A DNA stretch of 64,000 nt. It comes from Frigoribacterium sp. Leaf263. Lineage in GTDB: Bacteria; Actinomycetota; Actinomycetes; Actinomycetales; Microbacteriaceae. The stretch is from positions 468,208-532,207 of the forward strand of contig NZ_LMMO01000001.1 of the NCBI RefSeq assembly GCF_001422285.1, read 5' to 3'. The notes under the pieces are model-generated. The model had not been told where the DNA came from and did not search any database. It saw only the letters and a list, made by a program, of their open reading frames with translations. Made by a program: the position numbers and the translations under genes. Below, in pieces: positions 594 to 61,903 of the stretch (position 1 is the stretch's first letter; each line of letters opens with the position of its first letter).

Positions 594-2129
594 ATGGCCA
601 CATTCGTCGACCACGTCACCCTGCACCTGCGCGCCGGCAACGGCGGCAACGGCTGCGTGTCCGTCAAGCGCGAGAAGTTCAAACCCCTCGCCGGGCCTGA
701 CGGCGGCAACGGCGGGCACGGCGGAGACATCGTGCTGGTCAGCGACACCGGCGTCACGACCCTCCTCGGATTCCACCGCGCCCCGCACCGCTCGAGCGAG
801 AACGGCGGCTTCGGCATGGGCGACCACCGCAGCGGCACGAACGGCGAGCTGCTCGAGCTGACCGTCCCGGTCGGCACGGTCGTCAAGAGCGAGGACGGCA
901 CCGAGCTCATCGACATGGTCGAGCCCGGCATGCGCTTCGTCGCCGCCCAGGGCGGCATCGGCGGACTCGGCAACGCGGCTCTGTCGTCGACCAAGCGCAA
1001 GGCCCCCGGCTTCGCGCTCCTCGGCACGCCCGGCTGGCAGGGCGACGTCCTGCTCGAGCTCAAGGTCGTCGCGGACATCGCCCTGGTCGGCTACCCGTCG
1101 GCCGGCAAGTCGAGCCTGGTCGCCGCTCTGTCGGCCGCCAAGCCGAAGATCGCCGACTACCCGTTCACCACGCTGCACCCCAACCTCGGCGTCGTCGAGT
1201 CGGGCGAGACGCGCTACACGGTCGCCGACGTCCCGGGGCTCATCGAGGGGGCCAGCGAGGGCAAGGGGCTCGGGCTCGAGTTCCTCCGCCACGTCGAGCG
1301 CTGCTCGGCCCTGCTCCACGTCCTCGACTGCGCGACGCTCGACCCGGGCCGCGATCCGCTGACCGATCTCGACATCATCCTCGGCGAGCTCGAGGCCTAC
1401 CCCGTCCCCGAGGGGCAGCTGCCGCTGCTCGAGCGTCCTCAGCTGATCGCCCTGAACAAGGTCGACGTGCCCGACGGCCGCGAGCTCGCCGACTTCGTCA
1501 CCCCCGAGCTCGAGGCGCGCGGCTACAAGGTCTTCGAGATCTCCGCGGTCAGTCACGAGGGGCTGCGGAACCTCTCCTTCGCGCTGGCCGACGTCGTCGA
1601 GGCGAGCCGGGCCGAGATCGCCGCCCGACCCGCGCCTCCTCGACTCGTCATGCGTCCCCGCGCCGTCAACGAGAAGCCCTTCATCATCCGCGTCGAGGGC
1701 GGCACCTACGGCAACGTCTATCGGATCCTGGGCGAGAAGCCCGAGCGCTGGGTCGTGCAGACCGACTTCAACAACGAGGAGGCGGTGGGCTACCTCGCCG
1801 ACCGGCTCAACACCATCGGCGTCGAGGACGCCCTGTTCAAGGCCGGGGCGCAGGCCGGCTCGACGGTCGTGATCGGGCCCGAGGGCGGCATCGTCTTCGA
1901 CTGGGAGCCCACGCTGACCTCGACGGCCGAGCTGATGACCAGCGCCCGAGGCACCGACCCCCGACTCATCAAGAACGACCGGCCCACGCGCAACCAGCGT
2001 CGCGAGGAGTACTTCGAGCGCATGGACGCGAAGGCGGAGGCGCGTGCCGAGCTGCAGCGCGAGCGCGCCTCGGGCATGTGGACCGACGACGACGGGTTCC
2101 TCGTGAAAGAGGGCGACGACAAGGCATGA
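594..2129 (+). CDS. obg: GTPase Obg/CgtA
   Basis: Essential ribosome-assembly and stress-response GTPase that binds the 50S subunit. Three regions are visible: the glycine-rich Obg fold (about residues 1-160, with [15 protein letters not shown] and GGNGGHGGD), the G domain with GYPSAGKSS (about 166-174), DVPGLIEGA and NKVD (about 287-290), and the C-terminal OCT domain ending in a charged tail that is typical of actinobacteria. At 511 residues it has normal length for the phylum. The stop overlaps the proB start (ATGA at 2126-2129), implying translational coupling. The codons for PAPPR near 1630 contain an exact copy of the dispersed 13-bp word described in the findings. Confidence 0.96.
1630..1642 (+). 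repeat. Dispersed 13-bp word, coding copy in obg
   Basis: Exact CCGCGCCTCCTCG, read as the PAPPR codons in a linker between the Obg G domain and its C-terminal domain. Confidence 0.8.
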
Positions 2130-2950
2130 GCGACACGGCGTCGTCGTCGCCCCGCCGGGAGGGCGCCCGCGTGATCGACCGGGCCGGCATCGCGTCGGCT
2201 CGGCGCATCGTCGTGAAGGTCGGCTCGTCGTCGATCAGCGGCGACAACGCCGGTCAGATCGATCCGCTCGTCGACGCCCTGGCTGCGGCCTACGGACGCG
2301 GCGCCGAGATCGTCCTCGTGTCGTCGGGAGCCATCGCGACCGGCATGCCCCATCTGCGACTCGACGCGCGGCCGACCGATCTCGCGACGCAGCAGGCGGC
2401 GGCCGCCGTGGGGCAGAACGTGCTGATCTACCGGTATCAGCAGAGCCTCCGCCGGTACTCCATCGTCGCCGGGCAGGTGCTGCTCACCGCGGGCGACATC
2501 CAGAACCCGACGCACCGCAGCAACGCCCAGCGGGCGATGTCGCGACTGCTCGACCTGCGGATCCTGCCCATCGTCAACGAGAACGACACGGTCGCGACAC
2601 AGGAGATCCGCTTCGGCGACAACGACCGCCTCGCCGCCCTCGTCTCGAAGCTGATCGGCGCCGACGCCCTCGTGCTGCTGAGCGACGTCGACGCGCTGTA
2701 CACGAGGCCGCCCCACGAGGCCGGGGCCGTCAAGATCGTCGACGTCCCCTTCGGCGACGAGCTGCGCGGCGTGACGTTCGGCGACGTCGGCGCCGCAGGG
2801 GTCGGCACGGGAGGCGCGGGCACGAAGGTCGCCGCCGCGCGCTATGCGGCCGAGGCGGGCACGCCGGTGCTGGTGACCTCGACCGCGAACGTCGCCCGGG
2901 CGCTCTCGGGCGACGACGTGGGCACGTTCTTCGAGGCCGTCGGACCGTAA
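2126..2950 (+). CDS. proB: Glutamate 5-kinase
   Basis: Phosphorylates glutamate to glutamyl-5-phosphate, the first step of proline synthesis. It is an amino-acid-kinase fold with the phosphate-binding VVKVGSSS near residues 29-36, [10 protein letters not shown] and the substrate-binding [10 protein letters not shown]. The 274-residue protein lacks the C-terminal PUA domain of the E. coli enzyme, as many actinobacterial ProBs do. I chose ATG 2126, which overlaps the obg stop, over an in-frame upstream ATG that would lie inside obg. proA follows after 10 bases, completing the pathway pair. Confidence 0.94.
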
Positions 2951-2960
2951 GATCGACCCC

Positions 2961-4232: not shown

Positions 4233-4264
4233 GGCCCGGATCGTCCTCTCGAAACGGAGTACCC

Positions 4265-4483: not shown

Positions 4484-4500
4484 CCCGAGAGACGGACACC

Positions 4501-5139: not shown

Positions 5140-6332
5140 GTTCGTCCGACGGCCAGCCGCCCCTGACCCGACGGCAGGTTCGAGACCTCGAGCGTGCCCG
5201 CGAGGCCGGTCAGGCGGTCACCGGCGCGATCCCCGTCCCGGCGTCCGCCCCCGCATCGATGCCCACCCCGGCCTCGGTGCCCGCTCCCGCCCCGGCGCCC
5301 GCATCCGCGGCGGCGCCTGCGTCGGCCCCCGCGCCCGCCCCGGCGTCCGCGCCCGCCCCGGCGTCCGCGCCTGACCCGGCGTCCGCGCCCGCCCCCGAGG
5401 CGGCGTCTGCGTCCACGCCGACCCCGGCCTCGACGCCCGCCCCCGGGTCGACGCCCGCCCCGTCGTCGATCCCCACGTCGGCGACGGCCTCCGGATCCGA
5501 GCGCGGCCTGACCCGTCGCGAGCTGCGCGCTCTCCGTGAGGCCCAGTCGGGCAAGGCGGCCGAGCCCGTCCCGCTCCAGCCCCCCGGCCCCGAGCCCCGT
5601 CGGCCCCTGTCCGAGGCATTCAGCGCCGTCGACGAGATCATCGCCCCCACCGGGCAGATCCCCCGGGTGACGAGCGCGCCGTCGTCCGGCGAGACACCAG
5701 GGTCCGAGGCGACCAGCGCCTCCTCGGCTCCGACCCCCGCGTTGCGACCGGCGTCGTTCGACCGCCGCGAGCCGAGCGGCCCCGCCGCCGCGGCGCCTGC
5801 GGCCCCGGTGCGTCCGGTCGTGCCCACGATCCCCGCCTCGGCGCCCGAGTCGAACGGCTTCGTGCCGCCGGTCGGTCATTGGACCACCCAGAGCAGCGAG
5901 CCCGACGGCGACACCGCCCCGGGTCGCGCTCTCGGCACCCACACCGGTCAGACGAACGCGCTGATCCTGACGGACCAGCAGGTCGCCGACGTGACCGGTG
6001 CCCTGAACGCCACGGGCGAGATCATCATCACCGGCTCGATCGACTTGCCGCGCAGTCTCGGAGCGACGGGCTCGCAGGCGCGTGTCGACAGCGCCGACAT
6101 CGACCGCCTGCTCGAGCAGGGCGACGCCGAGAACGCCGAGACCGACGCCGTGCCCGTGCGGGCCAGCCGGGCCATCAGCACGCACACCTCCACCCGTGCG
6201 GTGGTGCTCGCGGCCTCGCAGCCGAAGGCGAGCCGGCTGCCGCTCTTCCTCGGGATCGGCGGCGGTATCATCGGAGCAGGTATCATCGGTGTGGTCGTCG
6301 CGGGTTTCGCGTCGGGCATCCTGGGTCAGTGA
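5136..6332 (+). CDS. Pro/Ala-rich membrane-anchored protein of unknown function
   Basis: A 398-residue protein. A short basic N-terminal motif, [14 protein letters not shown], reappears near residue 125 as [13 protein letters not shown]. Between the two lies a long Ala/Pro/Ser repeat (about residues 30-110, [12 protein letters not shown]-like). The C-terminus has one hydrophobic, glycine-rich helix ([19 protein letters not shown]) ending at the last residue, so it looks like a tail-anchored protein with a long disordered cytoplasmic part. It overlaps nadD by ATGA and is followed by rsfS after 39 bases, so it is part of that operon. The two LTRRxxR motifs may be interaction sites. I do not recognise a named family. 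Confidence 0.8.
5230..5480 (+). repeat. Ala/Pro-coding low-complexity repeat
   Basis: Imperfect units of about 12-18 bases (GCGCCCGCCCCGGCGTCC-like) encode APAPAS dipeptide runs in the gene at 5136-6332. Such repeats slip easily and may vary in length between strains. Confidence 0.75.
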
Positions 6333-7244: not shown

Positions 7245-8009
7245 ATGAGCGACGATCAGTCCGGCACCGGCAGCACCCCCGACCCCCACGCGACCCCCGC
7301 CTCCTCGGGGACGACCCCGGGCGAGACCGCCTCGGGCGCTGCGGCCCCCGATCAGCGTCCGCGTCCGGCCTACGGCGAGTACGCCCCGACGCCCGTCGGT
7401 GGCGGCGAGACAGATGCGACCGGCGCTCAGGCGCCCCCCGCGGCGCCCCACGACTCTCCGGCGCCGCCGAGGGGCGGAGTCGTCCCTCCCGCGGCGACTC
7501 GCCCGAGCGCGACCGACGGGACGCCCGGCCCCCGCGGCACCGGTGCCTTCGCCGGGGGCGGTCAGCCGCAGACCCTGGCGACCTTCACCCGCTACGAGGA
7601 CGCCCAGTCGGCCGTCGATCTGCTCTCGGACGAGGGGTTCCCCGTCGAGAGCGTCTCGATCGTCGGTCATGACATCCGCACCGTCGAGAACGTGACCGGG
7701 CGACTGACCAAGGGCGGTGCGGCGGCTCGAGGCGCCGGGGGAGGAGCCTGGTTCGGCCTGTTCCTGGGGCTCCTCTTCGGTCTGTTCGCCACGAACGTCG
7801 CCTTCATCGGCATCCTCCTCATCGCCGTCGGCGGCGGTGCCCTCTGGGGTGCGCTGTGGGGCTTCGTCGGTCACGCCGCGCTCCGGGGTCGTCGAGACTT
7901 CGCGTCGACGAAGACGATGGAGGCCGGCAGCTACGAGGTGCTCGTCCGTGGCGAGCTCGCCGTCCAGGCGCACCAGGTGCTCGCGCGGGGGCGCGGCATC
8001 GCTCCGTAG
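7245..8009 (+). CDS. General-stress-protein-17M-like domain membrane protein
   Basis: A 254-residue protein. The first 110 residues are a Pro/Gly/Thr-rich disordered stretch. Then comes a GSP17M-type fold (TLATFTRYEDAQSAVDLLSDEGFPVESVSIVGHD), two adjacent hydrophobic, glycine-rich helices (about 165-210) and a second short domain half ending SYEVLVRGELAVQAHQVLA. In such proteins the helices are thought to insert in or cross the membrane between the domain halves. A TAGAAC box (7233-7238) 6 bases before the ATG suggests leaderless expression. It is probably stress-related; the exact role is unknown. Confidence 0.8.
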   Translation: MSDDQSGTGSTPDPHATPASSGTTPGETASGAAAPDQRPRPAYGEYAPTPVGGGETDATGAQAPPAAPHDSPAPPRGGVVPPAATRPSATDGTPGPRGTGAFAGGGQPQTLATFTRYEDAQSAVDLLSDEGFPVESVSIVGHDIRTVENVTGRLTKGGAAARGAGGGAWFGLFLGLLFGLFATNVAFIGILLIAVGGGALWGALWGFVGHAALRGRRDFASTKTMEAGSYEVLVRGELAVQAHQVLARGRGIAP

Positions 8010-8375: not shown

Positions 8376-8830
8376 CCTCCCCGGACGCGGCGCCGCTGGA
8401 GGCGGCCGACCCGCTGGCGCTCGAGAGCCAGATCTGCTTCGCGCTCTCGGTCGCCTCGCGGAGCGTCGTCGCGGCGTACCGTCCCGTGCTCGAGCCGCTC
8501 GGTCTGACGCATCCGCAGTACCTCGTGATGCTGGCCCTCTGGCAGGGCCCGACCCTGACCCTCCGGGCGCTGGCCGAGACGCTCCGGCTCGACCCCGGCA
8601 CGCTCTCGCCGCTCGTCAAGCGACTCGAGAGCCAGGGTCTCGTCACCAGGAGGCGCGGGTCGGCCGACGAGCGCACCCTCGCCATCGCGCTGACACCCGC
8701 GGGCGCCGCCCTCCGGGGGGAGGCCGAATCGATCCCGTCGCGCATGATGCGGCGCCTCGGCGTCGAGCGCGACGAGCTCGTGCTGCTGCACCGGACCATG
8801 TCGAAGCTGATCGCGGCGGCCGAGAGCTGA
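8372..8830 (+). CDS. MarR-family regulator, OhrR-like
   Basis: A 152-residue winged-helix repressor. The segment ESQICFALSVASRSVVAAYRP carries a cysteine (Cys22) where OhrR proteins have their peroxide-sensing cysteine, and LTHPQYLVMLALW follows as in OhrR. The recognition region is LRLDPGTLSPLVKRLESQGLV and the wing has RRGSADERTLAIALT. By family it would sense organic hydroperoxides, but no ohr gene is adjacent in this window. It is coupled to the zinc-knuckle gene and probably controls the palindrome at 8088-8104. Confidence 0.87.
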   Translation: MTSPDAAPLEAADPLALESQICFALSVASRSVVAAYRPVLEPLGLTHPQYLVMLALWQGPTLTLRALAETLRLDPGTLSPLVKRLESQGLVTRRRGSADERTLAIALTPAGAALRGEAESIPSRMMRRLGVERDELVLLHRTMSKLIAAAES

Positions 8831-8831
8831 C

Positions 8832-8844
8832 CCGCGCCTCCTCG
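8832..8844 (+). repeat. Dispersed 13-bp word, intergenic copy
   Basis: Exact CCGCGCCTCCTCG one base after the regulator stop codon, between convergent genes. Confidence 0.85.
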
Positions 8845-9375: not shown

Positions 9376-10917
9376 ATGCGGAGAATCACCGGCATCGTCG
9401 CGCTCGCGACCGCCTTGACCCTGGGGGTGTCGGCTCCGGCCCTCGCCGCCTCGACCGGCTCGACCGGCGTCACCGGCTCGACGAGCAGCACGGTCGTCAG
9501 CAGCTCATCCGCCGCCCCCTCGAAGTCGGCCGCTGCGAAGAAGGCGGCTGCTGCGAAGGCGGCTGCTGCGAAGAAGGCGGCTGCTGCGAAGGCCGCCGCT
9601 GCGAAGAAGGCCGCGGCTGCGAAGGCCGCCGCCGCGAAGAAGGCGGCCGCCGCCCAGGCCGCCGCCACCGCGGCGTCCACGCCGCGTCAGCTGACGGCGA
9701 CCGCGGCCGGCCCGACCTCCGTCGTCTTCGCCTGGAAGGCGCCCGCGACGAGCGGTCGCCCGGCCCCGGCCGGCTACACGGTCACCGTCGTCTCGTCCGA
9801 CGGGCGCCCCGTCGGGCGCACGGTCTGGGTCCGCACGCCGAGCACGAGCACCCGCGTCGACGGCCTCGCCGCCGGCGCGACGTTCCGGTTCGAGGTGAGG
9901 GCCTGGACCAGGGGCGTCGCGAGTCCCGCCGCGCGTGTCGCGTACACGACGGCCGCCGCCCCGGTCGACCTCGGCACGGCGGTCTTCGCAGTCACGGACG
10001 GACGCATCGTCGCGTTCCCGACCGTCGACTCCGCGCCCGTCGACGTCGCGGCCGCCCCCGCGTCTCCCGGTGGCTACGACGTCGCCGCGAACGGCGATGC
10101 GGTCGTCCTCGACTCCGTCGCCGGGACGCTCGTCCGCCACCCCGCCACGCAGGCCGGTCCGGTCACCCTGGCGACGGACCTCGTCGGAGCCCGCGAGCTG
10201 CACGTCGCCTCGAAGGGCACGGCCTACGTGCTGACGGCCGGCGGCTCCCTCGTCGCCTTCGGCGCGGACGGCACGCGTCGCACGGTCGAGGCGGCCTTCC
10301 CCTCGACGCCGCTGCAGCTGGACGTGCGGCCGAACGGCGACGTCGTCGTGCTGTACACGAGCGTCCTCCGCACCTACCCGGCCGCCGGCGGTGCGCCGAC
10401 CGAGAGCGTCTTCACGCAGGGGACCACCCGCCTGAACGACATCATCGCCGGAGCCGGGACGACGACCTACTACGAGGCCAACAGCGGCGGCGCCGTCGGT
10501 CTGCAGTTCTGGTCCATCGACGACGGCTCGGGGGTCTCGAGCGGCATCACGAGCACGACGGACCGCACGACCTACGCCGCCGGCGGCTACGGGCTGAACG
10601 GCTCGTTCTACGCGCTGCAGGCTTCGCAGTTCTGCCTGCCGTTCCCCAGCCCGAACCGACCGCCGTGCACGGTCGACCTGGCCTCGAAGGACATCGTCGT
10701 CACCTCGGCGTCGGGCGTCCGCACCGTCGTCCCCGCCACGGGCGTCGCCCTGCAGAGCGAGTCGCGCCCCGGCAGCATCACGGCCGACGCCGACGGCGTC
10801 CTGTTCGTCGGTCTCGCCGGCGGTGCGACCCCGGGTCTGTGGAGCTTCGCCCCCGAGGGAGGCGCGGCGCAGCTGGTCGAGGCCGGCGCCTTCACCGACG
10901 TGAAGGTCGTCGACTGA
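9376..10917 (+). CDS. Secreted Lys/Ala-repeat protein with Fn3 and beta-propeller-like domains
   Basis: A 513-residue protein. It has a signal peptide (MRRITGIVALATALTLGVSAPALA, cleavage near ALAAS) and a Ser/Thr linker. A strictly periodic AAKKAAAAK helix repeat follows (about residues 52-98) resembling histone H1 tails or cell-wall/DNA-binding linkers. Next is a fibronectin-type-III domain (TPRQLTATAAGPTSVVFAWKAP...) and then about 300 residues of repeated VxxxGxxVVLDS-like strands suggesting an NHL-type propeller. The exported polycationic helix could bind teichoic or other anionic wall polymers; that is inference. It stands alone with its own promoter. Confidence 0.8.
   Translation: MRRITGIVALATALTLGVSAPALAASTGSTGVTGSTSSTVVSSSSAAPSKSAAAKKAAAAKAAAAKKAAAAKAAAAKKAAAAKAAAAKKAAAAQAAATAASTPRQLTATAAGPTSVVFAWKAPATSGRPAPAGYTVTVVSSDGRPVGRTVWVRTPSTSTRVDGLAAGATFRFEVRAWTRGVASPAARVAYTTAAAPVDLGTAVFAVTDGRIVAFPTVDSAPVDVAAAPASPGGYDVAANGDAVVLDSVAGTLVRHPATQAGPVTLATDLVGARELHVASKGTAYVLTAGGSLVAFGADGTRRTVEAAFPSTPLQLDVRPNGDVVVLYTSVLRTYPAAGGAPTESVFTQGTTRLNDIIAGAGTTTYYEANSGGAVGLQFWSIDDGSGVSSGITSTTDRTTYAAGGYGLNGSFYALQASQFCLPFPSPNRPPCTVDLASKDIVVTSASGVRTVVPATGVALQSESRPGSITADADGVLFVGLAGGATPGLWSFAPEGGAAQLVEAGAFTDVKVVD
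9526..9665 (+). repeat. GCGAAGAAGGC-type repeat coding for the Lys/Ala helix
   Basis: Units of 15-30 bases (GCTGCGAAGAAGGCGGCTGC-like) recur about seven times. They encode (A)AKKAAAAKA and would allow slippage in protein length. Confidence 0.75.
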
Positions 10918-10962: not shown

Positions 10963-11694
10963 CTAGCGCCCGGCGGCCCGCCCTTCGTCGTCGAACTCGG
11001 CGACCGTGGCCGCGATGAGCGCGTAGGCGGCCTCGTGCGCCGCCTCGTCGTCGCGCGCCGTGAGGGCGTCGGCCAGGGCGTGATGCCGGGCGGCGCTGGA
11101 GGGCGTGTAGTCGGTGATCGTGAAGCGCCGCTCTTCGGTGCGGGTGCGCAGCAGGGCCTCGACCGTCCCGGCGAAGTGCCCGATGACGGAGTTGCCCGAT
11201 CCGTGCAGGATCGCCGTGTGGAAGGCGATGTCGGCCTCGAGGTACCGACGCCCGTCGCCGGCGGCCCCGGCCTCGAGCATCGTGCTCGCGGCCTGCTGCA
11301 CGAGCGCGGCCTGGAGCGGGTCCAGTCGGGTCGCGCTGAGCCGGGCGGCCACGGGTTCGAGGCCCAGTCTCAGCTCGAGGAGCTCGCGCATCTGCGTGTG
11401 GTACTCGGAGCCCCGACCGCGCCAGAGGATGATCTGCGGGTTCATGAGATCCCAGGAGGCGCGGGGCAGCACCTGCGTGCCCACCCGCTGCCGAGGCTCC
11501 ACCATGCCGAGCGACTGCAGCACGCGCAGCGACTCGCGGAGCACGGAGCGCGAGACGGAGAACCTCAGGGCCAGGTCGTCGAGGTTCAGGATGGAGGCCG
11601 GGGCGAGTCGTCCGTCGACGATGTCCTGGCCGAGGACGTCGACGACCCGGCCGTGCAGACCTCGTTCGCGGGCGGGCGGGAGTCGGAGCGTCAT
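10963..11694 (-). CDS. FadR-type GntR transcriptional regulator, probably of gluconate genes
   Basis: A 243-residue protein with an N-terminal winged helix (LDDLALRFSVSRSVLRESLRVLQSLGMVEPRQRVGTQV) and a C-terminal FCD domain. The FCD domain carries the ligand- and metal-binding pattern LELRLGLEPVAARLSA, DIAFHTAILHGSGN and ARHHALADAL. I prefer the start at 11694 (MTLRLPPARE) over 11757 because the first 21 residues of the longer form are low-complexity. It is divergent from the gluconokinase gene, the usual arrangement for a gluconate repressor. An exact variant of the dispersed word with one change lies at 11452-11464. Confidence 0.85.
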   Translation of the reverse strand: MTLRLPPARERGLHGRVVDVLGQDIVDGRLAPASILNLDDLALRFSVSRSVLRESLRVLQSLGMVEPRQRVGTQVLPRASWDLMNPQIILWRGRGSEYHTQMRELLELRLGLEPVAARLSATRLDPLQAALVQQAASTMLEAGAAGDGRRYLEADIAFHTAILHGSGNSVIGHFAGTVEALLRTRTEERRFTITDYTPSSAARHHALADALTARDDEAAHEAAYALIAATVAEFDDEGRAAGR

Positions 11695-11981: not shown

Positions 11982-12532
11982 TGGCCGTCGTCGAGAACCC
12001 GACCCGCGCCTCCTCGGGGCTGTACGCCGCCGACCCGGTGCTGGTGGTCATGGGCGTGTCGGGGTCGGGCAAGTCGACCCTCGCCGCCCTGCTGGCCGAC
12101 GAGCTCGGCTGGGATCTCGCCGAGGGCGACGATCTGCACCCCGACGAGAACGTCGCGAAGATGGCGGCGGGCACGCCCCTCGACGACGACGACCGCGCGC
12201 CCTGGCTCGACACCGTGTCGTCGTGGATCATCGAGCACGCCCTGGCGGGCGTGCCCGGCGTCATCACCTGCTCGGCGCTGAAGCGGCGGTACCGCGACGT
12301 GCTGCGCGAGCACAACGTCGTCTTCGTCTACCTGCGCGGCACGCGCGAGCTGCTCGGCGACCGGATGGCCGCACGCGAGGGGCACTTCATGCCGACGACG
12401 CTGCTCGACTCGCAGGTCGCCACGCTCGAGCCGCCGCAGGCCGACGAGCGGCATGTGGTCGTCGACGCGGGCCGCGCACCCGCCGACGAGGTCGCCGACG
12501 TGATCCGGCTGCTCGGGCTGACCCGCGCCTGA
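11981..12532 (+). CDS. gntK: Gluconokinase
   Basis: Phosphorylates gluconate to 6-phosphogluconate for the pentose phosphate pathway. The P-loop is MGVSGSGKST at residues 24-33, followed by the family residues EGDDLHPDENVAKMAAGTPLDDDDRAPWL and CSALKRRYRD. The length of 183 residues is about 20 longer than usual because of an N-terminal extension (MAVVENPTRASSGLYAADP). The TRASS part of that extension is an exact copy of the dispersed 13-bp word. Whether the extension is translated depends on start choice, but no internal start with a better site is apparent. It is divergent from the GntR regulator. Confidence 0.93.
   Translation: MAVVENPTRASSGLYAADPVLVVMGVSGSGKSTLAALLADELGWDLAEGDDLHPDENVAKMAAGTPLDDDDRAPWLDTVSSWIIEHALAGVPGVITCSALKRRYRDVLREHNVVFVYLRGTRELLGDRMAAREGHFMPTTLLDSQVATLEPPQADERHVVVDAGRAPADEVADVIRLLGLTRA
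12004..12016 (+). repeat. Dispersed 13-bp word, coding copy in the gntK extension
   Basis: Exact CCGCGCCTCCTCG, here in the frame that yields TRASS. It lies in sequence outside the conserved kinase core. Confidence 0.8.
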
Positions 12533-15836: not shown

Positions 15837-18392
15837 TCACCCCTCGCGGACGACGTCCTCCGGCGACTTGTCCGGGCGCCAGCCGCGCCACGACGGCTGC
15901 CGGAGGCGACCGGTCGACGTCCACTCGGCGATCGACACCTCGCCGACCCGCGACGGCGTCACCCAGCGCGCCCCGCGCGCATCCACCGGCGGGACCCCGA
16001 CGAGCGGGCTCGTCTTCCGCTCGGCGGCCTCGAGCATCGGCAGCAGCTCGTCGAGCTCGCGGTCGCTGAACCCGGTGCCCACGCGCCCCACGTACTCGAG
16101 GCCCGCGTCGCCCGGCACGCCCATCAGCAGCGCTCCGACCCCGTCGGCCCGGCGACCGGCACCCGGACGCCACCCGGCGATCACGACCTCCTGCGTCCGA
16201 TGGTGCTTCATCTTGAGCCAGGCCCGCGAGCGCCGCCCCGCGCTGTAGGTCGCGTCGCGGCGCTTGGCGACCACGCCCTCGAGTCGCAGTCGTCGCGACG
16301 TCGTCATGGCGGCGTCGAGGTCGCCGTCGAACGCGGGCGGCACATCGATCGCGCCGCCGCCCTCGACGATGCGTTCGAGCACCTCCCGCCGGTCGTCGTA
16401 GTGCTCGCGGACGAGCGAGCGGCCCTCGGCCCGCATCACGTCGAACAGCAGCAGCCGGACGGGTGCCGAGGCGGCGGCCCGCGCCACGTCGCGGGGGCGG
16501 GTCAGGCCCATGCGGCTCTGCAGGAGGCCGAAGTCGGGGCGACCCTTCTCGTCGACGGCGACGATCTCGCCGTCGAGCACCGCGCCTCCCTCGCTGTCGA
16601 CCCGGTCGGCCAGCTCCTGCAGCTCGGGGTAGGCGGGGGTGAGGTCGTTGCCGTTGCGACTCGTCAGGGTGACCTCGCCGTCGTGGACCACCGCGACCGC
16701 GCGGATGCCGTCCCACTTCATCTCGAACGCCCACTCGCCCTCGGCGACGTCGTGCGCGTCGCCCGTCGTCGCGAGCATCGGCGCCACCGGCTCGGGCGCC
16801 GTCGGCTCGCGCTCCGTGCTCCGAGCCGACGAGGTGCCGCCCGAGCCGCGGCCCGTCGCGCCTCGGCCGGTCGGCTTCTCAGGAGGACGGCCGTCTCGGC
16901 GGGGTGAGCGCCGCTCGGACCCCTCGGCGTCTGAGTTCCCGACCGCGGACCCGCCGCCGTCGTCGTCCTTCATGCGGTGGATCAGCCAGTTCCGCTCGGC
17001 CTTCCCGCCGCCGTGCCCGGTGTGGATGAGGGCGACTCGCCGGGTGCCGCGCTGCTCGCCGTGCAGCACGACGATGACCTCCTTCCCGTCGCGCCACTTC
17101 TCGAGGTCGTACTCGCCCGAGTCCCAGATCGTGACCTCTCCGGCCCCGTACTCGCCCTTCGCGATGGTGCCCTCGAACGTCCCGTACTCGAGCGGGTGGT
17201 CCTCCGTCTGGACGGCGAGGTGGTTCGTGCCGGGGTCGTCGGGCTCGCCCTTCGGCAGGGCCCAGCTGACGAGCACGCCGTCGTGCTCGAGGCGGAAGTC
17301 CCAGTGCAGCCGGCTCGCGTGGTGCTCCTGGATGACGAAGCTCCGGCCGTCGGTCGAGGGCGGGGCCTCGGCGGGCACCGGCTCGCGCGTCCGAGCCGGG
17401 TCGCGCATCGAGCGGTACATCTCGAGGCGGTCCCGGCGCTTCTCGGACGGGTCGTGGTCGGGGTCGTCCGTGTTGCGGAAGTCCTCGCCGAGCTCGCCCG
17501 GCGGCACCGGGGTGCCGCTCGACACGTCGGCGAGGGGGTCGCCGCGGCGCCTCAGGCGCGACAGCACCTCGGTGTGCTCGAGCTGACGCAGCGACGGCGA
17601 GGCGAGCTCGCGCCAGGTGCGCGGCATCGCGACGGTGGGCCGTGACCGTCCGCGCAGCGAGTACGGCGCCACGGTCGTCTTGCTGCCGTTGTTCTGCGAC
17701 CAGTCGAGCAGCACCTTGCCGCGGCGATCGGCCCGGCCCATCGTGCTCAGCACGAGATCGGGGTGGTCGGCCTCCAGGGCCCGGGCCAGCTCGTGCGCCA
17801 CCGCGCTCACCTGCTCGCCGGTCTGCCGGCCGTCGAGGCGCGCGTAGAGGTGCACCCCCTTGCTGCCGCTGGTCACGGGCACGAGCTCGAGACCCATGCC
17901 CTCGACGATCGGCCTCAGCTCGCGGGCGACCGCGACGCACTCGGCGAGACCGACGCCCTCGCCCGGGTCGAGGTCGAGCACGAGGCGATCGGGGTTCCGT
18001 CGGGCGCCGCGGGGGCCGAAGCGCCACTGCGGCACGTGGACCTCGAGCGCGGCGACCTGGGCCAGCCAGGTCAGCGTGGCGAGGTCGTTGACCATCGGGT
18101 AGACGTTCGCGTGGTCCTTGTGCTCGATCTCGTGCCGGGCGACCCAGTCGGGCGCGGAGTCGGGCAGGTTCTTCTCGAAGAAGACCTGGCCCTCGACCCC
18201 GTCCACCCAGCGCTTGCGCGTGGCCGGGCGCCCTTCGACGTGCGGCAGCATCCACTCGGCGACGGCTGCGTAGTAGCCGAGCACATCGGCCTTCGTCGTC
18301 CCCGTCTCGGGGTACAGCACCTTGTCGAGATTGGTCAGCTGCAGCCGGTGCCCGCCGACCTCGACGGTCTCGCCGCGTCCTCTGCCCGCCAT
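15837..18392 (-). CDS. ligD: Multidomain ATP-dependent DNA ligase LigD (POL-PE-LIG)
   Basis: Works with Ku to repair double-strand breaks by non-homologous end joining. Domain order, as in mycobacteria: primase-polymerase (about residues 1-290, LVLDLDPGEGVGLAECV and SGSKGVHLYARLD), 3'-phosphoesterase (about 325-470, FVIQEHHASRLHWDFRLEHDGVL) and ATP ligase (about 540-851, catalytic lysine in KWDGIR near 558, DGEIVAVDE). The 851 residues give a complete enzyme. A Gly/Ser/Arg linker (about 490-535) separates PE from LIG. The start has GAGGAGG upstream, contributed by a one-mismatch copy of the dispersed word. The SDR and ku genes lie just upstream. Confidence 0.95.
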   Translation of the reverse strand: MAGRGRGETVEVGGHRLQLTNLDKVLYPETGTTKADVLGYYAAVAEWMLPHVEGRPATRKRWVDGVEGQVFFEKNLPDSAPDWVARHEIEHKDHANVYPMVNDLATLTWLAQVAALEVHVPQWRFGPRGARRNPDRLVLDLDPGEGVGLAECVAVARELRPIVEGMGLELVPVTSGSKGVHLYARLDGRQTGEQVSAVAHELARALEADHPDLVLSTMGRADRRGKVLLDWSQNNGSKTTVAPYSLRGRSRPTVAMPRTWRELASPSLRQLEHTEVLSRLRRRGDPLADVSSGTPVPPGELGEDFRNTDDPDHDPSEKRRDRLEMYRSMRDPARTREPVPAEAPPSTDGRSFVIQEHHASRLHWDFRLEHDGVLVSWALPKGEPDDPGTNHLAVQTEDHPLEYGTFEGTIAKGEYGAGEVTIWDSGEYDLEKWRDGKEVIVVLHGEQRGTRRVALIHTGHGGGKAERNWLIHRMKDDDGGGSAVGNSDAEGSERRSPRRDGRPPEKPTGRGATGRGSGGTSSARSTEREPTAPEPVAPMLATTGDAHDVAEGEWAFEMKWDGIRAVAVVHDGEVTLTSRNGNDLTPAYPELQELADRVDSEGGAVLDGEIVAVDEKGRPDFGLLQSRMGLTRPRDVARAAASAPVRLLLFDVMRAEGRSLVREHYDDRREVLERIVEGGGAIDVPPAFDGDLDAAMTTSRRLRLEGVVAKRRDATYSAGRRSRAWLKMKHHRTQEVVIAGWRPGAGRRADGVGALLMGVPGDAGLEYVGRVGTGFSDRELDELLPMLEAAERKTSPLVGVPPVDARGARWVTPSRVGEVSIAEWTSTGRLRQPSWRGWRPDKSPEDVVREG

Positions 18393-18393: not shown

Positions 18394-18496
18394 GCGCGCC
18401 TCCTCGGTCCGTGTCGCCTCCTGTTCTACCCGGCACGACGGCGGCCCGTCGCCCGCAGGGAGGGGGCGACGGGCCGCAGGAGCCGAGGAGGCGCGG
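18394..18496 (-). terminator. Hairpin bracketed by inverted copies of the dispersed word
   Basis: The core stem is GCGGCCCGTCGCCC (18441-18454) with its exact complement (18464-18477), a 9-base loop and no T-run. Outside it lie a one-mismatch copy (18394-18406) and an exact copy (18484-18496) of the 13-bp word in opposite orientation. The exact copy is two bases past the SDR stop codon and the other serves as ribosome-binding region of ligD. Confidence 0.7.
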
Positions 18497-37312: not shown

Positions 37313-37359
37313 CGAGGAGGCGCGGCGGGGGTCGATCGCACCCGCACTGCGCCTCCTCG
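37313..37359 (+). terminator. Hairpin made of an inverted pair of the 13-bp word
   Basis: The exact copy CGAGGAGGCGCGG (37313-37325) can pair with CTGCGCCTCCTCG (37347-37359) over 13 positions with one G-U wobble and a 21-base loop. It starts 7 bases after the poxB stop and lies between convergent genes. Two further GGAGGCGC fragments follow at 37378-37402. Confidence 0.75.
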
Positions 37360-37429
37360 GCTCGGCTTCGGCGCCGCCCAGGAGGCGCCGCCCAGGAGGC
37401 GCGTCCGAGGCCGCGATGCCCCGCCCGCG

Positions 37430-50136: not shown

Positions 50137-50149
50137 CCGCGCCTCCTCG
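50137..50149 (+). repeat. Dispersed 13-bp word, intergenic copy after the pit operon
   Basis: Exact CCGCGCCTCCTCG 20 bases past the stop. Its CGCCTC part can pair with GAGGCG at 50115-50120, which includes the stop codon region, to make a weak hairpin. Confidence 0.85.
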
Positions 50150-51776: not shown

Positions 51777-51820
51777 CGAGGAGGCGCGGCGCCGCTGCGA
51801 CCGGCACCGCGCCTCCTTCG
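51777..51820 (+). terminator. Hairpin made of an inverted pair of the 13-bp word
   Basis: CGAGGAGGCGCGG (51777-51789) can pair with CCGCGCCTCCTTCG (51807-51820): ten perfect pairs, a one-base bulge, then three more, with a 17-base loop. It lies between convergent aspA and yihY-type genes and can stop both. Confidence 0.78.
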
Positions 51821-51846: not shown

Positions 51847-52983
51847 TCAGGGGGCCGAGGGCGCGTGGCTGGTGGGGTCGACCTGCTCGGAGCGCTCGGC
51901 CGCGCGCTCGCGTTCGTCGCCCGTCCGGTCGCTGATGGTGCGGACGTGCAGCCGCCGCAACTCGTCCGGGTCGAGCACTCCGCCGTTCTCGCGCAGCGAC
52001 CGCTCGCGGATCGCACGGCCGACCCGGACGTCCCAGGCGGTGTTCCGGGCGAGGATGTGATTGCGGGCCGTGTCGCGCATCGGCAGCGGGATGACCTCCT
52101 CGGCCTGGACCCCCCGCCGGAGCTGACGCATGCGGAGGATCTCGCTGTCGAGCTCCCCGCCGATCACGAGCACGAAGTTGCTGATGTAGGCGTACAGCAG
52201 CACGACCACGACCCCGCCGACCCAGCCGTAGAACCGGTCGTAGTTCGACACCGTCAGCACGTACGTCGCGAACCCGGCGGTGGCGAGGGCCCAGCCGCCG
52301 AGGGCGACCATGGCGCCGTACGACACCCACCGCAGGCGCGGCGGGCGCACGTTCGGGGTGAAGAAGTACAGCACCGCGACCGACAGCACGGCGAGTGCGA
52401 CGAGCACCGGCCACTTCAGCACGTTGTAGAGATCGGTCCACGGCCGGCCGATGCCGACCCGGCCCGCGATGGCCTCGACGAGGGTCGGGGTGACGAGCAG
52501 GATGACGGCGATGAGAGCCAGCGACACCATCAGCACGACGGTAACGATCATCATGTGCCCGCGGAACTTCCAGATGCGCCGCCCCTCCTCGACCTCGTAG
52601 GCGGTGTTCATCGCGCGGCCGAACGCCGTCGCGTACGCCGACAGCGACCACAGCGTCAGCCACAGGCCGATGCCGAACGCGACGCCGGGGTTCGAGAGGC
52701 TGAGCATCTGCTCGAGCGGCCCCCGCAGCGACTCGACCGCGTTCGCCGTCAGGACGTACCGGGCGACCCCCAGGATGTCGGTCACCGCGTCGCCGCCGTC
52801 GCCGACGAACAGGGCGACGCCCGAGACCAGGGCGAGCGCGGTGGGCACGAGCGCCAGCAGCGAGAAGAAGGTCAGCGACGCGGCGGCGTCGATGGTGCGA
52901 TGCCGCAGGAAGTCGTGCCAGACGCGCATCACCACGTAGCGGACCATCGTCGGGTCCTCGGGCAGGGACCGGGTCGAGGGCAT
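51847..52983 (-). CDS. YihY/BrkB-family membrane protein
   Basis: 378 residues with six hydrophobic helices. The family opening TIDAAASLTFFSLLALVPTALAL, LWSLSAYATAFGRAMNTAYEVEEGRRIWKFR and YISNFVLVIGGELDSEI are diagnostic. Often misnamed ribonuclease BN; it is an inner-membrane protein of uncertain function. The C-terminal 90 residues are charged and cytoplasmic. On this strand TACCCT (52995-52990) is exactly 6 bases before ATG 52983, so it is leaderless. Confidence 0.9.
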   Translation of the reverse strand: MPSTRSLPEDPTMVRYVVMRVWHDFLRHRTIDAAASLTFFSLLALVPTALALVSGVALFVGDGGDAVTDILGVARYVLTANAVESLRGPLEQMLSLSNPGVAFGIGLWLTLWSLSAYATAFGRAMNTAYEVEEGRRIWKFRGHMMIVTVVLMVSLALIAVILLVTPTLVEAIAGRVGIGRPWTDLYNVLKWPVLVALAVLSVAVLYFFTPNVRPPRLRWVSYGAMVALGGWALATAGFATYVLTVSNYDRFYGWVGGVVVVLLYAYISNFVLVIGGELDSEILRMRQLRRGVQAEEVIPLPMRDTARNHILARNTAWDVRVGRAIRERSLRENGGVLDPDELRRLHVRTISDRTGDERERAAERSEQVDPTSHAPSAP

Positions 52984-52989: not shown

Positions 52990-53050
52990 AGGGTACCGCC
53001 GAGGAGGCGCGGCTCCCGCCCGGTCGGCCGCCGACGGCTGGCTCTAGGGT
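52990..53050. promoter_or_regulatory. Divergent leaderless promoters flanking a 13-bp word
   Basis: The -10 boxes TACCCT (minus strand, 52995-52990) and TAGGGT (53045-53050) each lie 6 bases before their ATG. An exact CGAGGAGGCGCGG (53000-53012) fills most of the expected -35 to -10 spacer of the minus-strand promoter. Confidence 0.6.
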
Positions 53051-53056: not shown

Positions 53057-54436
53057 ATGACCTGGAACGAGCCCCGCGGCCACGATCCCCGCCGATCGTC
53101 GACCGTCACTCCGAACCCGCAGCCGGTGTGGTACCCGGTGCAGCCGGTGTTCAGCCGACCCGCGCCTCCTCGGCCCCGCGTCGCCAGCACCGTCGCGCTC
53201 GCGGTCGGCTTCACCGTCATCGGGGTGTTCGCGCTCGCCGTGGTCGTGTACTTCCTGATCTTCCTGCGGCCCTCGCTCATCGCCGCCGGGGCCCTCCTCG
53301 CCTTCGTGCCGCTCGTGATCGTGCTCGTCGGCATCTGGCTCGTCGACCGCTGGGAGCCCGAGCCGAGGGTCGCGCTGCTCTTCGCGTTCCTCTGGGGCGC
53401 CGCGGTCGCGGTCGGGACGGCGCTCGTCGTCGACGTGGTGGTCGGCAACATCCGCGCCGTCGTCGGTCTCGCCGACGGCGACTCGGCCGATCTCTTCGGC
53501 GCCGTGGTGCAGGCCCCGCTCGTCGAGGAGGGCGCCAAGGGCTTCGGGGTGCTGCTCGTCCTCTGGATCTTCCGACGGCACTTCGACGGACCGGTCGACG
53601 GAATCGTCTACGCCGCGACCGTGGCGGCCGGGTTCGCCTTCGTCGAGAACATCCAGTACTTCGCCGTGCAGGTCGCCGACGACCTCGCCACGGGCAGCCA
53701 GGGGCTCGTCTTCACGTTCCTGGTGCGGGCGCTGATGTCGCCCTTCGCGCATGTCATGTACACCGCCTGCACGGGTGTCGCGCTCGGTTACGCCGCGCGG
53801 CGCACGGGGCCGTTCGGCGCCATCGGCTTCTTCTTCGTCGGGCTCGTTCCCGCCATCGCCCTGCACGCGCTCTGGAACGGCGCGCTCATCGTGGTCGGCG
53901 GGGCGTTCTTCGCCTACTACCTGCTCGTGCAGGTGCCGATCTTCGCCGCGATGGTCGGTCTCGTGGTGTTCCTGCGACGCAGCGAGAGGCGGACGACCCA
54001 TGCGCGACTCGCCGAGTACGCGGCGGTCGGCTGGTTCAGCGCCGACGAGGTCGCCATGCTGTCGACGTCGGCGGGTCGCCGCCGAGCACGTCGGTGGGCC
54101 GCCGCGAACGGGCTCGGCCCGGCCATGAGGCGGTTCGTGTCGGACGCCACGCGACTCGCGGCGACGCGGCAGCGGATGCTCAAGGGGCGGCGCGAGATGG
54201 ACGCCGTCGCCGGTCGCGACGAGGCCCTCCTGCTGCAGGCGCTCGGCGCGAGTCGCGCCGCATTGCAGGCTCCGCCCACCGCGTTCGTCGGGCATGCGCC
54301 GAGGCCCGACGGCGCCCCCCGGGTCGACGGCTCGGGCCGGCCGACGGGCGGCGGGTACGACGGGGACGCCCCGGAGGCGGTCGGACGCCCGGTCATGTAC
54401 GACCAGTGGGGGCGGGCGCTGCCGCCCCAGTGGTGA
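53057..54436 (+). CDS. PrsW-family intramembrane protease
   Basis: 459 residues with about eight helices. The conserved catalytic glutamates and histidine appear as EEGAKG (about 157-162), FAFVENIQYF and LHALWNG, as in PrsW/RsiW-cleaving proteases. In Bacillus PrsW starts regulated proteolysis of an anti-sigma factor; no sigma/anti-sigma pair is visible here. The 50-residue N-terminal and 150-residue C-terminal parts are cytoplasmic and disordered. A TAGGGT box 6 bases before the ATG indicates leaderless expression. An exact 13-bp word lies in PAPPR codons (53160-53172). Confidence 0.9.
   Translation: MTWNEPRGHDPRRSSTVTPNPQPVWYPVQPVFSRPAPPRPRVASTVALAVGFTVIGVFALAVVVYFLIFLRPSLIAAGALLAFVPLVIVLVGIWLVDRWEPEPRVALLFAFLWGAAVAVGTALVVDVVVGNIRAVVGLADGDSADLFGAVVQAPLVEEGAKGFGVLLVLWIFRRHFDGPVDGIVYAATVAAGFAFVENIQYFAVQVADDLATGSQGLVFTFLVRALMSPFAHVMYTACTGVALGYAARRTGPFGAIGFFFVGLVPAIALHALWNGALIVVGGAFFAYYLLVQVPIFAAMVGLVVFLRRSERRTTHARLAEYAAVGWFSADEVAMLSTSAGRRRARRWAAANGLGPAMRRFVSDATRLAATRQRMLKGRREMDAVAGRDEALLLQALGASRAALQAPPTAFVGHAPRPDGAPRVDGSGRPTGGGYDGDAPEAVGRPVMYDQWGRALPPQW
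53160..53172 (+). repeat. Dispersed 13-bp word, coding copy in the prsW-like gene
   Basis: Exact CCGCGCCTCCTCG, read as PAPPR in the disordered N-terminal region, 148 bases from the intergenic copy at 53000 and in opposite orientation. Confidence 0.8.
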
Positions 54437-54475: not shown

Positions 54476-55843
54476 TCAGGGAGTCGGCGCCTCCGCGTCG
54501 TAGCGGCGGAACGACGGGGTGAGCCGGGCGACCACGCCGACCAGCACGACGACGAGCGCCCCGCCGAGCAGCGGCGGCCAGAAGACCCCGACGGCCGCGA
54601 CGAGGCCGACGAACAGATCGCCGAGGCGCGGTCCGCCGGTCACGACGACGATGAAGATCCCCTGGAGGCGCCCCCTCATCGAGTCCGGAGCCGCGGCCTG
54701 CAGGATGGTCGACCGGAAGATCGAGCTGACGTTGTCGGCCGCACCCGCGCCGGCGAGGGCGACGGCCGCAGCGACGAGTGCGACGGGCTGGGCCGCGGCG
54801 AGCCCGTCGTCGAGACCGCCTCCCGGTCGCAGGGGGGTGAGCGCCAGCACGAGCCCGAACGCCGCGACGAACGCGCCGTAGACCGCGACGGACCGGTTGA
54901 CGGCGCGGCCCTGCAGTCGCACCTGCCCGAGTCGGCCGGAGAACACGCTGCTGAGCAGCGATCCGACGGCGAAGGAGGCGGTGAGGGCTCCGACCGTCAC
55001 CGCGCCTCCTCCGATCACCAGCGTCCCGACCACGGGGTAGAGCACCCGCGGCTGCCCGAAGGTCATGGCGATCAGGTCGACGACGAACGTCGTGCGGATG
55101 TTGGGGGAGCGCCGGAGGAACCGCATCCCCTCGGCGAGCGACGACAATCCGGGCCGGCTGGTCGCACCCTCGGGTCGGATCGGCGGCAGCGTGAGGATCC
55201 CGACGAAGGCGAAGGAGAAGAGCACGACGTCGACGCTGTAGGTGAGGGGGAACCCGACGCCGGCGACGAGGATGCCGGCGAGGGCCGGGCCGACGGTCAG
55301 CATGAGCCCCGTGCCGATGCCGCCGAGGGCCGCTGCGGCGGGCAGGAGGCGCGGGGGCAGCAGGCGGGGCACGATGGCCGCCCGGGAGGTCGAGATCATC
55401 GTCCCCGCGACGGCGTTCACGCAGGCGAGCACGTACAGCAGCGCGACCTCCCGGATCCCCAGCCAGGCGTGCAGCGCGATGGCGGCGGTCGAGAGCCAGG
55501 CGAAGACGGCGGCGATCAGGGCGACCTTCCGGCGGTCGAAGGCGTCGGCCAGCATGCCGCCGTAGAGCCCGGCGATGATCATCGGGACGAGCGAGAAGGC
55601 GCCGACGAGGGCGACGGCGAAGGTCGACCGGGTGATGTCGTAGACCTCGAGTCCCACGGCCACGACGGTGAGCTGCGTGCCGATCCCGCTGACCGTGTTG
55701 CCGACGAACAGACGGGCGAAGGCCGGGCTGGCGCGGAGCGGCGAGAGATCGACGACGAGCGGTCGCCGAGCGGAGCCGGGAGGAGTGGACAAGCCTCCAT
55801 CATCGCCGATTTTGCACGACCCGGCACCGGAGGTATCGTCCAT
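54476..55843 (-). CDS. MFS exporter, EntS/enterobactin-exporter-like
   Basis: 455 residues with 12 helices: ARLFVGNTVSGIGTQLTVVAVGLEVYDITRSTFAVALVG, GGMLADAFDRRKVAL (motif A) and GRLQGIFIVVVTGGPRLGDL. This is the MFS subfamily that contains siderophore exporters and macrolide pumps. No siderophore synthesis genes are nearby, so substrate is open. The start is uncertain: ATG 55843 gives a Cys/Gly-rich start, while a later TTG in GGAGGCTTG near 55790 would begin just before STPPGS. Confidence 0.85.
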   Translation of the reverse strand: MDDTSGAGSCKIGDDGGLSTPPGSARRPLVVDLSPLRASPAFARLFVGNTVSGIGTQLTVVAVGLEVYDITRSTFAVALVGAFSLVPMIIAGLYGGMLADAFDRRKVALIAAVFAWLSTAAIALHAWLGIREVALLYVLACVNAVAGTMISTSRAAIVPRLLPPRLLPAAAALGGIGTGLMLTVGPALAGILVAGVGFPLTYSVDVVLFSFAFVGILTLPPIRPEGATSRPGLSSLAEGMRFLRRSPNIRTTFVVDLIAMTFGQPRVLYPVVGTLVIGGGAVTVGALTASFAVGSLLSSVFSGRLGQVRLQGRAVNRSVAVYGAFVAAFGLVLALTPLRPGGGLDDGLAAAQPVALVAAAVALAGAGAADNVSSIFRSTILQAAAPDSMRGRLQGIFIVVVTGGPRLGDLFVGLVAAVGVFWPPLLGGALVVVLVGVVARLTPSFRRYDAEAPTP

Positions 55844-57305: not shown

Positions 57306-57316
57306 TTGAGTGACTG

Positions 57317-59605: not shown

Positions 59606-59613
59606 CCCGCGGC

Positions 59614-60750: not shown

Positions 60751-61817
60751 CAGCGCGACGTCACCTCGCGGGCGAAGCGGTCGACCCACTCCGAGCGCGT
60801 GGGGACGAGCTCGGTCGGGTCGAGCGTGGAGTAGCCGGCGGCGACCGGGTCGGCCGCGATGTCGCCCACGACCGCCTCGATGGTGTCGGGCACGGTGGCC
60901 GCCGGGTTGACGGGCAGATCGCCCACGATCTCGGCCGACGCGGTCTGGGCCTCGGCCGAGAGCAGGTAGTCGATGAACCTCTCGGCGCCGTCGACGTTCG
61001 CGGCGCCGGTCGGGATCATGGCGCGGTTGGTCGCCATGTAGCGGCCGGTCTCGGGAGCGGTCCACGCGACGGGCTCGCCGGAGGCGACGAGGTCGGTGGC
61101 GAAGCCGCTCAGCGAGTCCGCGGCGACGATCTCGCCCTGGGTCAGCAGGTTCGTGACCTCGGTCGACGAGCTGTAGAACTGCAGCACGCCGGGGGCCCAC
61201 TCGCCCAGCTGGTCGAGGGCCGCGTCGATGTCGTACGGGCCGTCGCCGTACTCGTCGGCCACGCCCGAGACCATGAGCTGGCCCGCGGTGACCGAGATGT
61301 CGGGCAACGCGACACGGCCCGCGAGGGCGTCGTCGCCGTAGAGGCTCCACGAGGCGGCCTCGTCGGCGCTGAGCTCGTCGGTCGAGTAGAGGGTGCCGTT
61401 CAGCTGGTAGCTGTAGGCGGGTCCGACGTACTCCTCCTCGGTCGCGAAGTCCGCGATCTCGTCGAGCGACGGGACGTCCGAGGCGTCGACCTGCTGGAAG
61501 AGCTCGTCCTCCTGGCCCAGGGCGGCGTAGTAGTCCGAGATGAGCATCACGTCGACCTCGGGCTCGCCGCCTGCGAGCTGCAGCTGCGAGAGGCGGTCCG
61601 AGTTCGAGCCCGTGTCGACGACGACCTCGATGCCGGTCTCCTCCGTGAACGGGTCGATGACCGCCTCCTGGAACTCCTCGACCCCGAAGGGGAAGGTGCT
61701 CACGGTGATCGTGTCGGCGTCGGCCTCTCCGCTGCTCGACGAGCAGCCGGCGAGCACCAGGGTGGTGACGGCGACGCCGGCGACGAGCGCGAGGCGGGTG
61801 CGGATGGTCGTGGTCAT
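60750..61817 (-). CDS. ABC importer substrate-binding lipoprotein
   Basis: 355 residues. Signal peptide with lipobox LAGC (Cys25), then ADTITVSTFPFGVEEFQEAVIDPFTEETGIEVVVD, as in the spermidine/putrescine/iron(III) type II binding proteins. LPVNPAATVPD and an acidic surface fit that class. AAGGA before the ATG is the ribosome site. It belongs to a permease-permease-ATPase-binding protein-deaminase operon. The ligand is unknown; the coupled deaminase suggests an amino-purine or other amine. Confidence 0.88.
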   Translation of the reverse strand: MTTTIRTRLALVAGVAVTTLVLAGCSSSSGEADADTITVSTFPFGVEEFQEAVIDPFTEETGIEVVVDTGSNSDRLSQLQLAGGEPEVDVMLISDYYAALGQEDELFQQVDASDVPSLDEIADFATEEEYVGPAYSYQLNGTLYSTDELSADEAASWSLYGDDALAGRVALPDISVTAGQLMVSGVADEYGDGPYDIDAALDQLGEWAPGVLQFYSSSTEVTNLLTQGEIVAADSLSGFATDLVASGEPVAWTAPETGRYMATNRAMIPTGAANVDGAERFIDYLLSAEAQTASAEIVGDLPVNPAATVPDTIEAVVGDIAADPVAAGYSTLDPTELVPTRSEWVDRFAREVTSR

Positions 61818-61890
61818 GATGGTGTCCTTTCGGGGCGGTCTCGGCGAGACCGGTCGGGAGGGTGATGCTGCTGAGGCGAGGGGGAGCGGC

Positions 61891-61903
61891 CGAGGAGGCG
61901 CGG
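61891..61903 (-). repeat. Dispersed 13-bp word, intergenic copy inside the ABC operon
   Basis: Exact CGAGGAGGCGCGG on +, between the ATPase stop and the binding protein start. GGCCGA (61888-61893) and TCGGCC (61905-61910) allow a small local hairpin around it, a possible mRNA processing or stability point in the operon. Confidence 0.85.

Follow-up and report, generated by a model that had tools for sequence, protein, structure and literature searches.

DNA uptake words have so far been described, in the literature cited here, from two Gram-negative families, as the DNA uptake sequences (DUS) of the Neisseriaceae and the uptake signal sequences (USS) of the Pasteurellaceae. In the published sections drawn on here, their profile comprises copy number, dialects, an inner core and inverted repeats that serve as terminators (PMC12616744, PMC5031613, PMC3630211). 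Here we describe a 13-bp word, CCGCGCCTCCTCG, that recurs throughout a 64-kb stretch of the genome of Frigoribacterium sp. Leaf263 (the window, meaning the whole stretch that was analysed). The genus Frigoribacterium belongs to the family Microbacteriaceae, order Micrococcales. The word, with its core CGCGCCTCC, is on balance probably the Frigoribacterium form of a DNA-uptake-type word.

The DUS of the Neisseriaceae, as characterised in parts of these sources (PMC3630211, PMC12616744, PMC5031613), are short non-palindromic words with hundreds to thousands of copies, clade dialects and a small inner core; copies lie in genes, few are found in the accessory genome, and inverted repeats act as terminators. 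Comparable traits are seen in Frigoribacterium. The USS have DUS-like traits too, and themselves fall into two dialects with the common core GCGG (PMC12616744, in the part cited). Unlike both, the Frigoribacterium word comes from another phylum and is known from sequence alone. It is a different word from the DUS and longer than the 9-mer USS, and pilM is absent from the most word-rich genomes. Closer at hand is Micrococcus luteus, also of the Micrococcales, which carries comEA/comEC and tad genes, as does the Leaf263 genome, and whose transformation is Flp/Tad dependent (PMC4322843). The terms 'uptake sequence' and 'sequence specific' are absent from that paper, and for Frigoribacterium transformation itself is a prediction. 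Among the titles and abstract openings listed by searches of the open-licence PubMed Central library, none describes uptake words in Actinobacteria.

Abundance and form of the word

The window contains 15 exact occurrences of CCGCGCCTCCTCG (Table 1), and the initial annotation of the window had placed all of them correctly. In 100 dinucleotide shuffles the mean was 0.06 copies and the largest count 1, while Markov models predicted 0.04–0.12 copies at orders 1–4, 0.35 at order 5 and 1.7 at order 6. Nine near-copies have one mismatch and three further ones have one inserted base; the seven near-copies named in the initial annotation are all real. In the whole 3.24-Mb genome there are 596 exact copies, 294 forward and 302 reverse, against 3 copies of the reversed word used as a control.

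Finer analysis used a sample of 424 kb of the 3,243.6-kb genome (the window and 18 other stretches), in which genes were called with a purpose-written script based on codon usage. This sample holds 83 exact copies, with the flanking consensus G-[A/C]-N-word-G-C, and 69 copies with one mismatch, compared with a mean of 4 (largest 19) for 60 permuted words. The ratio of exact to one-mismatch copies, 1:0.83, is of the same order as the 1:1.15 to 1:1.45 of two DUS genomes in the published portions consulted. Among the 69 one-mismatch copies, the change is at position 1, 2, 5 or 12 in 48 and at positions 6–10 in 2. A decaying repeat would give evenly spread mismatches, and this placement therefore indicates maintenance of the core. 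The sample contains 281 copies of the core, CGCGCCTCC. The core is still enriched in two other Frigoribacterium genomes, G003 and G006, where the T that follows it is weaker (0.38, against 0.60–0.74 in G000, G002 and G014); this may reflect a sub-dialect.

Codon use does not explain the abundance of the word. Shuffling of synonymous codons left an expectation of 1.6 coding copies, against 42 observed. Coding copies on the strand of the gene read RASS in 13 of 21 cases, and those on the opposite strand read EEAR in 18 of 19. The word passes both tests that the initial annotation had set for it: its genome-wide count is far above expectation, and codon usage does not account for its coding copies.

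Distribution and placement

Among 60 relatives, Leaf263 included, the word has 213–648 copies in all 16 Frigoribacterium genomes and at most 12 in each of the 44 others. A search for inverted pairs of the word in a collection of 84,980 species, each represented by one genome, gave 75 stretches, all of them from Frigoribacterium.

In the 424-kb sample 43 of the 83 exact copies are intergenic and 40 lie in genes (41 and 42 with a second version of the gene caller), although non-coding DNA makes up only about 16%. For the window, independent gene calls gave the same split as the initial annotation, 8 intergenic and 7 coding; its figure of a tenth for intergenic DNA is below the 16% of the sample. 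A gene 3′ end is found within 60 nt of 74% of the intergenic copies, compared with 22% of random intergenic positions. The proportion of copies within 60 nt of a gene 5′ end (28%) is no different from that of random positions. A Shine–Dalgarno role, at which the initial annotation had hinted for one strand, is ruled out, because copies occur in both orientations and 3′ ends, not starts, are preferred.

Contig C6 of the Leaf263 genome (93.5 kb) is plasmid-like, with ParA and a helix-turn-helix gene resembling plasmid genes of Clavibacter, Curtobacterium, Frondihabitans and others. It has 1 exact word and 6 core words, where 19 and 65 are predicted from the density on the other sampled contigs. 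Scaling the expectation by permuted words for the lower GC content of the contig gives 7 exact and 24 core words (P = 0.006 and 9e-6). The depletion in foreign or accessory DNA is thus that of one plasmid-like contig. Contig C6 (L297, L047, L298, L299, L300) also carries a DNA methylase gene together with a restriction gene of the ResIII type, and a gene for a VanY-like carboxypeptidase.

Inverted pairs

The 75 Frigoribacterium stretches contain 77 exact inverted pairs, of which 67 have a gap of 16 or 17 nt (range searched, 14–22 nt). The pairs include the same site from different species and have 44 distinct spacer sequences, so they are not independent. A gene 3′ end lies no more than 60 nt from 57 of them and at a greater distance from 5. 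Of the others, 9 overlap with a called gene, 2 lie between divergent genes and 4 sit at the ends of stretches. The six outer spacer positions pair with each other more than in shuffled halves (11 spacers of 16 nt, p = 0.006; 26 spacers of 17 nt, p = 0.015), and the four pairs that were folded, two of them from the window, formed strong hairpins (z −3.9 to −7.2). A hairpin after the stop codon, as in intrinsic terminators, is thus found for the pairs only. Within the 424-kb sample, 7 of the 83 exact copies belong to an inward pair with a gap of 14–22 nt when the partner is allowed up to two mismatches. TTTT within 20 nt after the hairpin was found at none of the 77 pairs.

Conservation and mode of change of word sites

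When the word sites that lie in genes are aligned with other Frigoribacterium genomes, most differences are substitutions without gaps; examples are the sites in obg (1630) and the phosphoketolase gene (23354) and the site at 30094. Counted by eye over G002, G014, G003 and G006, 12 of 18 changed sites of window words are ungapped; in the reverse direction, with words of the relatives set against wordless window sequence, 8 of 13 are ungapped. Substitution accounts for most of the gain and change of the word, within genes as well. Against other genera, the alignment is frequently gapped at the word. Compared with neighbouring 13-mers in the same register, word sites are exactly conserved more often in G002 (9 of 13, against 24%) and G014 (5 of 9, against 13%).

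Words of other lineages

Other words were sought in 40–100 kb samples of 25 genomes of relatives, and four words were then counted over whole genomes on both strands. A word was called enriched if it was at least 3-fold more frequent than its reversed form, and GCGGCATCCG was also required to have at least 80 copies; tallies were made by eye from tables. The samples revealed further over-represented words, several of which exceed the synonymous-codon null too. GCGGCATCCG is enriched in 10 of 21 Microbacteriaceae genomes outside Frigoribacterium (in G016, 1179 copies against 20 reversed), in none of the 16 Frigoribacterium genomes (24–44 against 35–66) and in none of 23 genomes of other families. 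GCGGCATMCS, counted in 248 genomes of the order, is enriched in 18 of 20 other Microbacteriaceae (in G089, 2615 against 100), the exceptions being G103 and G265. In a second family, f18, 10 of 20 genomes show enrichment, as does 1 of the 207 genomes from all remaining families (37 copies); the Leaf263 genome does not. The form GCGGCATACS reaches 157–1053 copies in 11 of the 20 f18 genomes and at most 29 in 21 Microbacteriaceae; as exceptions within f18, G252 carries the ATCC form instead and 8 of the 20 have neither form. CGGATCCTKC has 582 copies in G019 and at most 109 in each of the other 59 genomes, a comparison best made between genomes because its reversed word is rare in every one.

Genome G103, of genus g45, is without the word found in the other sampled genomes of that genus, and in genus g100 one genome has the ATCC form (G252) and another neither form (G282). 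These are candidates for a recent word change.

Candidate uptake machinery genes

The Leaf263 genome encodes ComEA (SLBB plus helix-hairpin-helix) and ComEC in one operon, and upstream of topA it has a cluster of TadA, a T2SSF protein, DUF4244 and TadE. Of 60 relatives, 58 have ComEC and all 60 have a T2SSE ATPase. A TadA-family match is present in all 37 genomes, with and without words, for which it was sought, and 31 of these matches are over the curated cut-off. A Flp/Tad operon is present in G053. The type IVa pilus gene pilM (PF11104) was found in 13 of the 16 Frigoribacterium genomes and does not track the words, which speaks against a type IVa pilus as the uptake machine. Its absence from the closely related G000, G002 and G005 points to a recent pilus loss in one clade. 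A Tad route for uptake in Frigoribacterium is plausible by analogy, because transformation of M. luteus depends on tad genes in the published text cited (PMC4322843, PMC6370729).

Interpretation

The word is present in high copy number, has a motif of core and flanks, changes mostly by substitution, lies in tolerated frames and after genes, forms inverted hairpin pairs, shows no strand polarity, is scarce on a plasmid-like contig and has dialects in other lineages. Taken together, these traits match the published DUS and USS profile. The words and dialects were observed directly, and we infer uptake bias as their driver. During natural transformation, fragments that bear the word would be preferred by a receptor, which might be ComEA or a component of the Tad/Flp pilus. 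Imported fragments would overwrite the homologous locus, and because of this replacement alleles that gain a word would spread. Words gained by mutation would accumulate where they do little harm, and paired copies 3′ of genes might be put to secondary use as terminator-like hairpins. GCGGCATCCG, the word of many other Microbacteriaceae, would have been displaced when the receptor changed its specificity in the lineage leading to Frigoribacterium. Whether, more broadly, the Microbacteriaceae and a second Micrococcales family run an independently evolved, sequence-specific uptake with dialects, in which a Tad/Flp pilus with ComEA/ComEC replaces the type IVa pilus and Frigoribacterium has switched both word and exchange partners, is close to an even call, leaning slightly to the negative.

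If uptake is the cause, natural transformation would be predicted in many Microbacteriaceae, and an independent Gram-positive case, whose dialects can be seen in many genomes, would open a new group to tests of how such specificity arose, of its receptor and of its role in limiting gene exchange. Even if it is not, lineage-specific words in such numbers call for an explanation.

Several observations weigh against an uptake signal. Machinery genes do not predict the words, because ComEC and Tad-type ATPases occur with and without them. The three genomes that lack pilM in the close group above (G000, G002 and G005) are the three most word-rich, and pilM is also missing from the word-rich G018, G022, G034 and G053. 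Unlike in Frigoribacterium, most copies of the words found in other genera are genic (23 of 24 copies in G016, 17 of 19 in G021, 21 of 25 in G023, 15 of 16 in G053 and 16 of 19 in G024; 3 of 5 in G019), and the different words may or may not share an ancestor. Gaps make up 6 of 18 differences at aligned word sites in one direction and 5 of 13 in the other, and at one of these sites 12 of the 13 bases are lacking. More distant relatives keep no word sites (G003, 0 of 7, controls 9%; G006, 0 of 3, controls 12%). A comparison of 58 kb with G002 revealed neither a divergence gradient nor a recombination signal near shared words, a weak test because third positions differ by about 25%. Finally, Frigoribacterium is not known to be competent from the literature searches made, and a search of the open-licence PubMed Central library for the two terms together gave no paper.

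Alternative explanations

The initial annotation had listed both an uptake or recombination signal, now the best-supported reading, and a nucleoid-protein site, which is retained as a rival. In the latter case the word would be bound by a chromosome-organising or nucleoid protein of lineage-shifting specificity, with copies selected for folding, segregation or repair. The chromosome-wide spread, the conservation of sites in close relatives, the scarcity on contig C6 and the lineage specificity of the words would all suit such a protein. However, the lack of polarity puts an end to directional versions such as Chi and KOPS (FtsK-orienting polar sequences), and such sites would not be expected to favour gene 3′ ends, to form inverted hairpin pairs or to occur as a full 13-bp word in tolerated frames inside genes. 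We regard this explanation as unlikely.

Alternatively, the word could act at the RNA level, as half of a terminator or RNA-stability hairpin of which single copies are remnants. The 57 of 77 pairs close behind stop codons, the excess pairing of spacer bases and the stability of the four folded pairs speak for such an element. Against it, few of the 83 exact copies (7) are in inward pairs and nearly half (40) lie in genes, on either strand, and a hairpin requires complementarity rather than one fixed 13-mer. The genic copies and the missing T-run at all 77 pairs rule out a classical intrinsic terminator as the whole story, and an RNA-level origin of the word as such is distinctly improbable.

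The headline of the initial annotation was a possible element like the repetitive extragenic palindromic (REP) sequences. Such a mobile repeat, known also as hairpin-forming doublets (REPINs), would be spread by a transposase. REP/REPIN sequences, in the part of the account cited (PMC3116915), are likewise short, abundant and arranged in fixed-gap inverted doublets that form hairpins, and some intergenic sites of the Frigoribacterium word do align with gaps, including the one in the window that lacks 12 of 13 bases. The Frigoribacterium word is, by inspection, non-palindromic, its spacers are varied (44 distinct among 77 pairs) and its aligned changes are mostly ungapped. About half of its copies are genic (40 of 83), whereas 14 of 1,067 REP words overlap genes in Pseudomonas fluorescens SBW25, in the same cited part (PMC3116915), and there are nearly no copies on contig C6. 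A Y1 transposase, of the RAYT (REP-associated tyrosine transposase) type that the initial annotation had in mind, was found in none of the 36 genomes searched, 16 of them Frigoribacterium. A mobile element of this kind is very improbable.

A directional site of the Chi or KOPS kind, equally poorly placed, would account for the high copy number and the lineage-specific words, but strand polarity was absent from 12 of 12 sets (the Leaf263 genome and 11 relatives, words of 8–10 bases), with both strands mixed within 20-kb stretches and all p > 0.05, which rules it out for the sampled stretches. The idea that GC content, codon use or frequent peptides produced the word has next to no chance of being right, for although the word is GC-rich and its coding copies favour the RASS and EEAR frames, half of the copies are intergenic and the shuffling, Markov and reversed-word controls (1.6 expected against 42 coding copies; 3 against 596) refute such an artefact.

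Copies in the window

The positions of all exact copies and near-copies in the window are collected in Table 1.

Table 1. Exact copies and near-copies of CCGCGCCTCCTCG in the 64-kb window
Feature	Position	Strand	Location and remarks
Exact word	1630..1642	+	Coding, in obg; G003 and G006, Frigoribacterium relatives wordless at this site, are one ungapped substitution away
One-mismatch copy	5714..5726	+	Exact word at aligned G002 site, ungapped
One-mismatch copy	7295..7307	+	
One-mismatch copy	8646..8658	-	Exact word at aligned G002 site, ungapped
Exact word	8832..8844	+	Intergenic, 1 nt 3′ of called stop codon
One-inserted-base copy	10854..10867	-	
One-mismatch copy	11452..11464	-	
Exact word	12004..12016	+	Coding
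One-inserted-base copy	16580..16593	+	
One-mismatch copy	18394..18406	+	
Exact word	18484..18496	-	Intergenic
Exact word	23354..23366	-	Coding, phosphoketolase gene; G014 and G003 carry substitutions without gaps
Exact word	27152..27164	+	Coding, antisense relative to gene
Exact word	29839..29851	+	Coding, antisense relative to gene
Exact word	30094..30106	-	Coding, same gene as 29839 copy; G014 and G003 differ ungapped
Exact word	32149..32161	-	Intergenic, 37 nt 3′ of called stop codon
Exact word	37313..37325	-	Intergenic; left arm of inverted pair, 7 nt past called stop codon
One-mismatch copy	37347..37359	+	Right arm, pairs with 37313 copy, gap 21
One-mismatch copy	39816..39828	-	Mismatch inside core
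Exact word	50137..50149	+	Intergenic, 20 nt 3′ of called stop codon
Exact word	51777..51789	-	Intergenic; left arm of inverted pair, 17 nt past called stop codon
One-inserted-base copy	51807..51820	+	Right arm, pairs with 51777 copy, gap 17
One-mismatch copy	52579..52591	+	
Exact word	53000..53012	-	Intergenic, flanked by divergent genes
Exact word	53160..53172	+	Coding
One-mismatch copy	55000..55012	+	
Exact word	61891..61903	-	Intergenic

Exact and degenerate copies also lie side by side in clusters, some as direct repeats, at 37313–37404 of the window, at 16993–17050 of L038 and at 10597–10713 of L040.

Other repeated sequences

Four further repeats were seen in the samples. CGATCCCCTA, possibly another word, has six dispersed copies in 60 kb of G006, where 0.03 are expected (L161, positions 4424, 6900, 10183, 13636 and 14524; L160, position 611). 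There are 13 copies of GTCTCGAAACC in the G023 samples (L198, L199 and L170), some of them clustered. Nineteen copies of ACTGACGTGA fall inside 1.35 kb of called coding sequence (L042, 18572–19924), a repetitive stretch of a gene, and CTGAAGAGGC forms a tandem repeat in G018, with eight units at 18-bp spacing (L176, 6770–6905).

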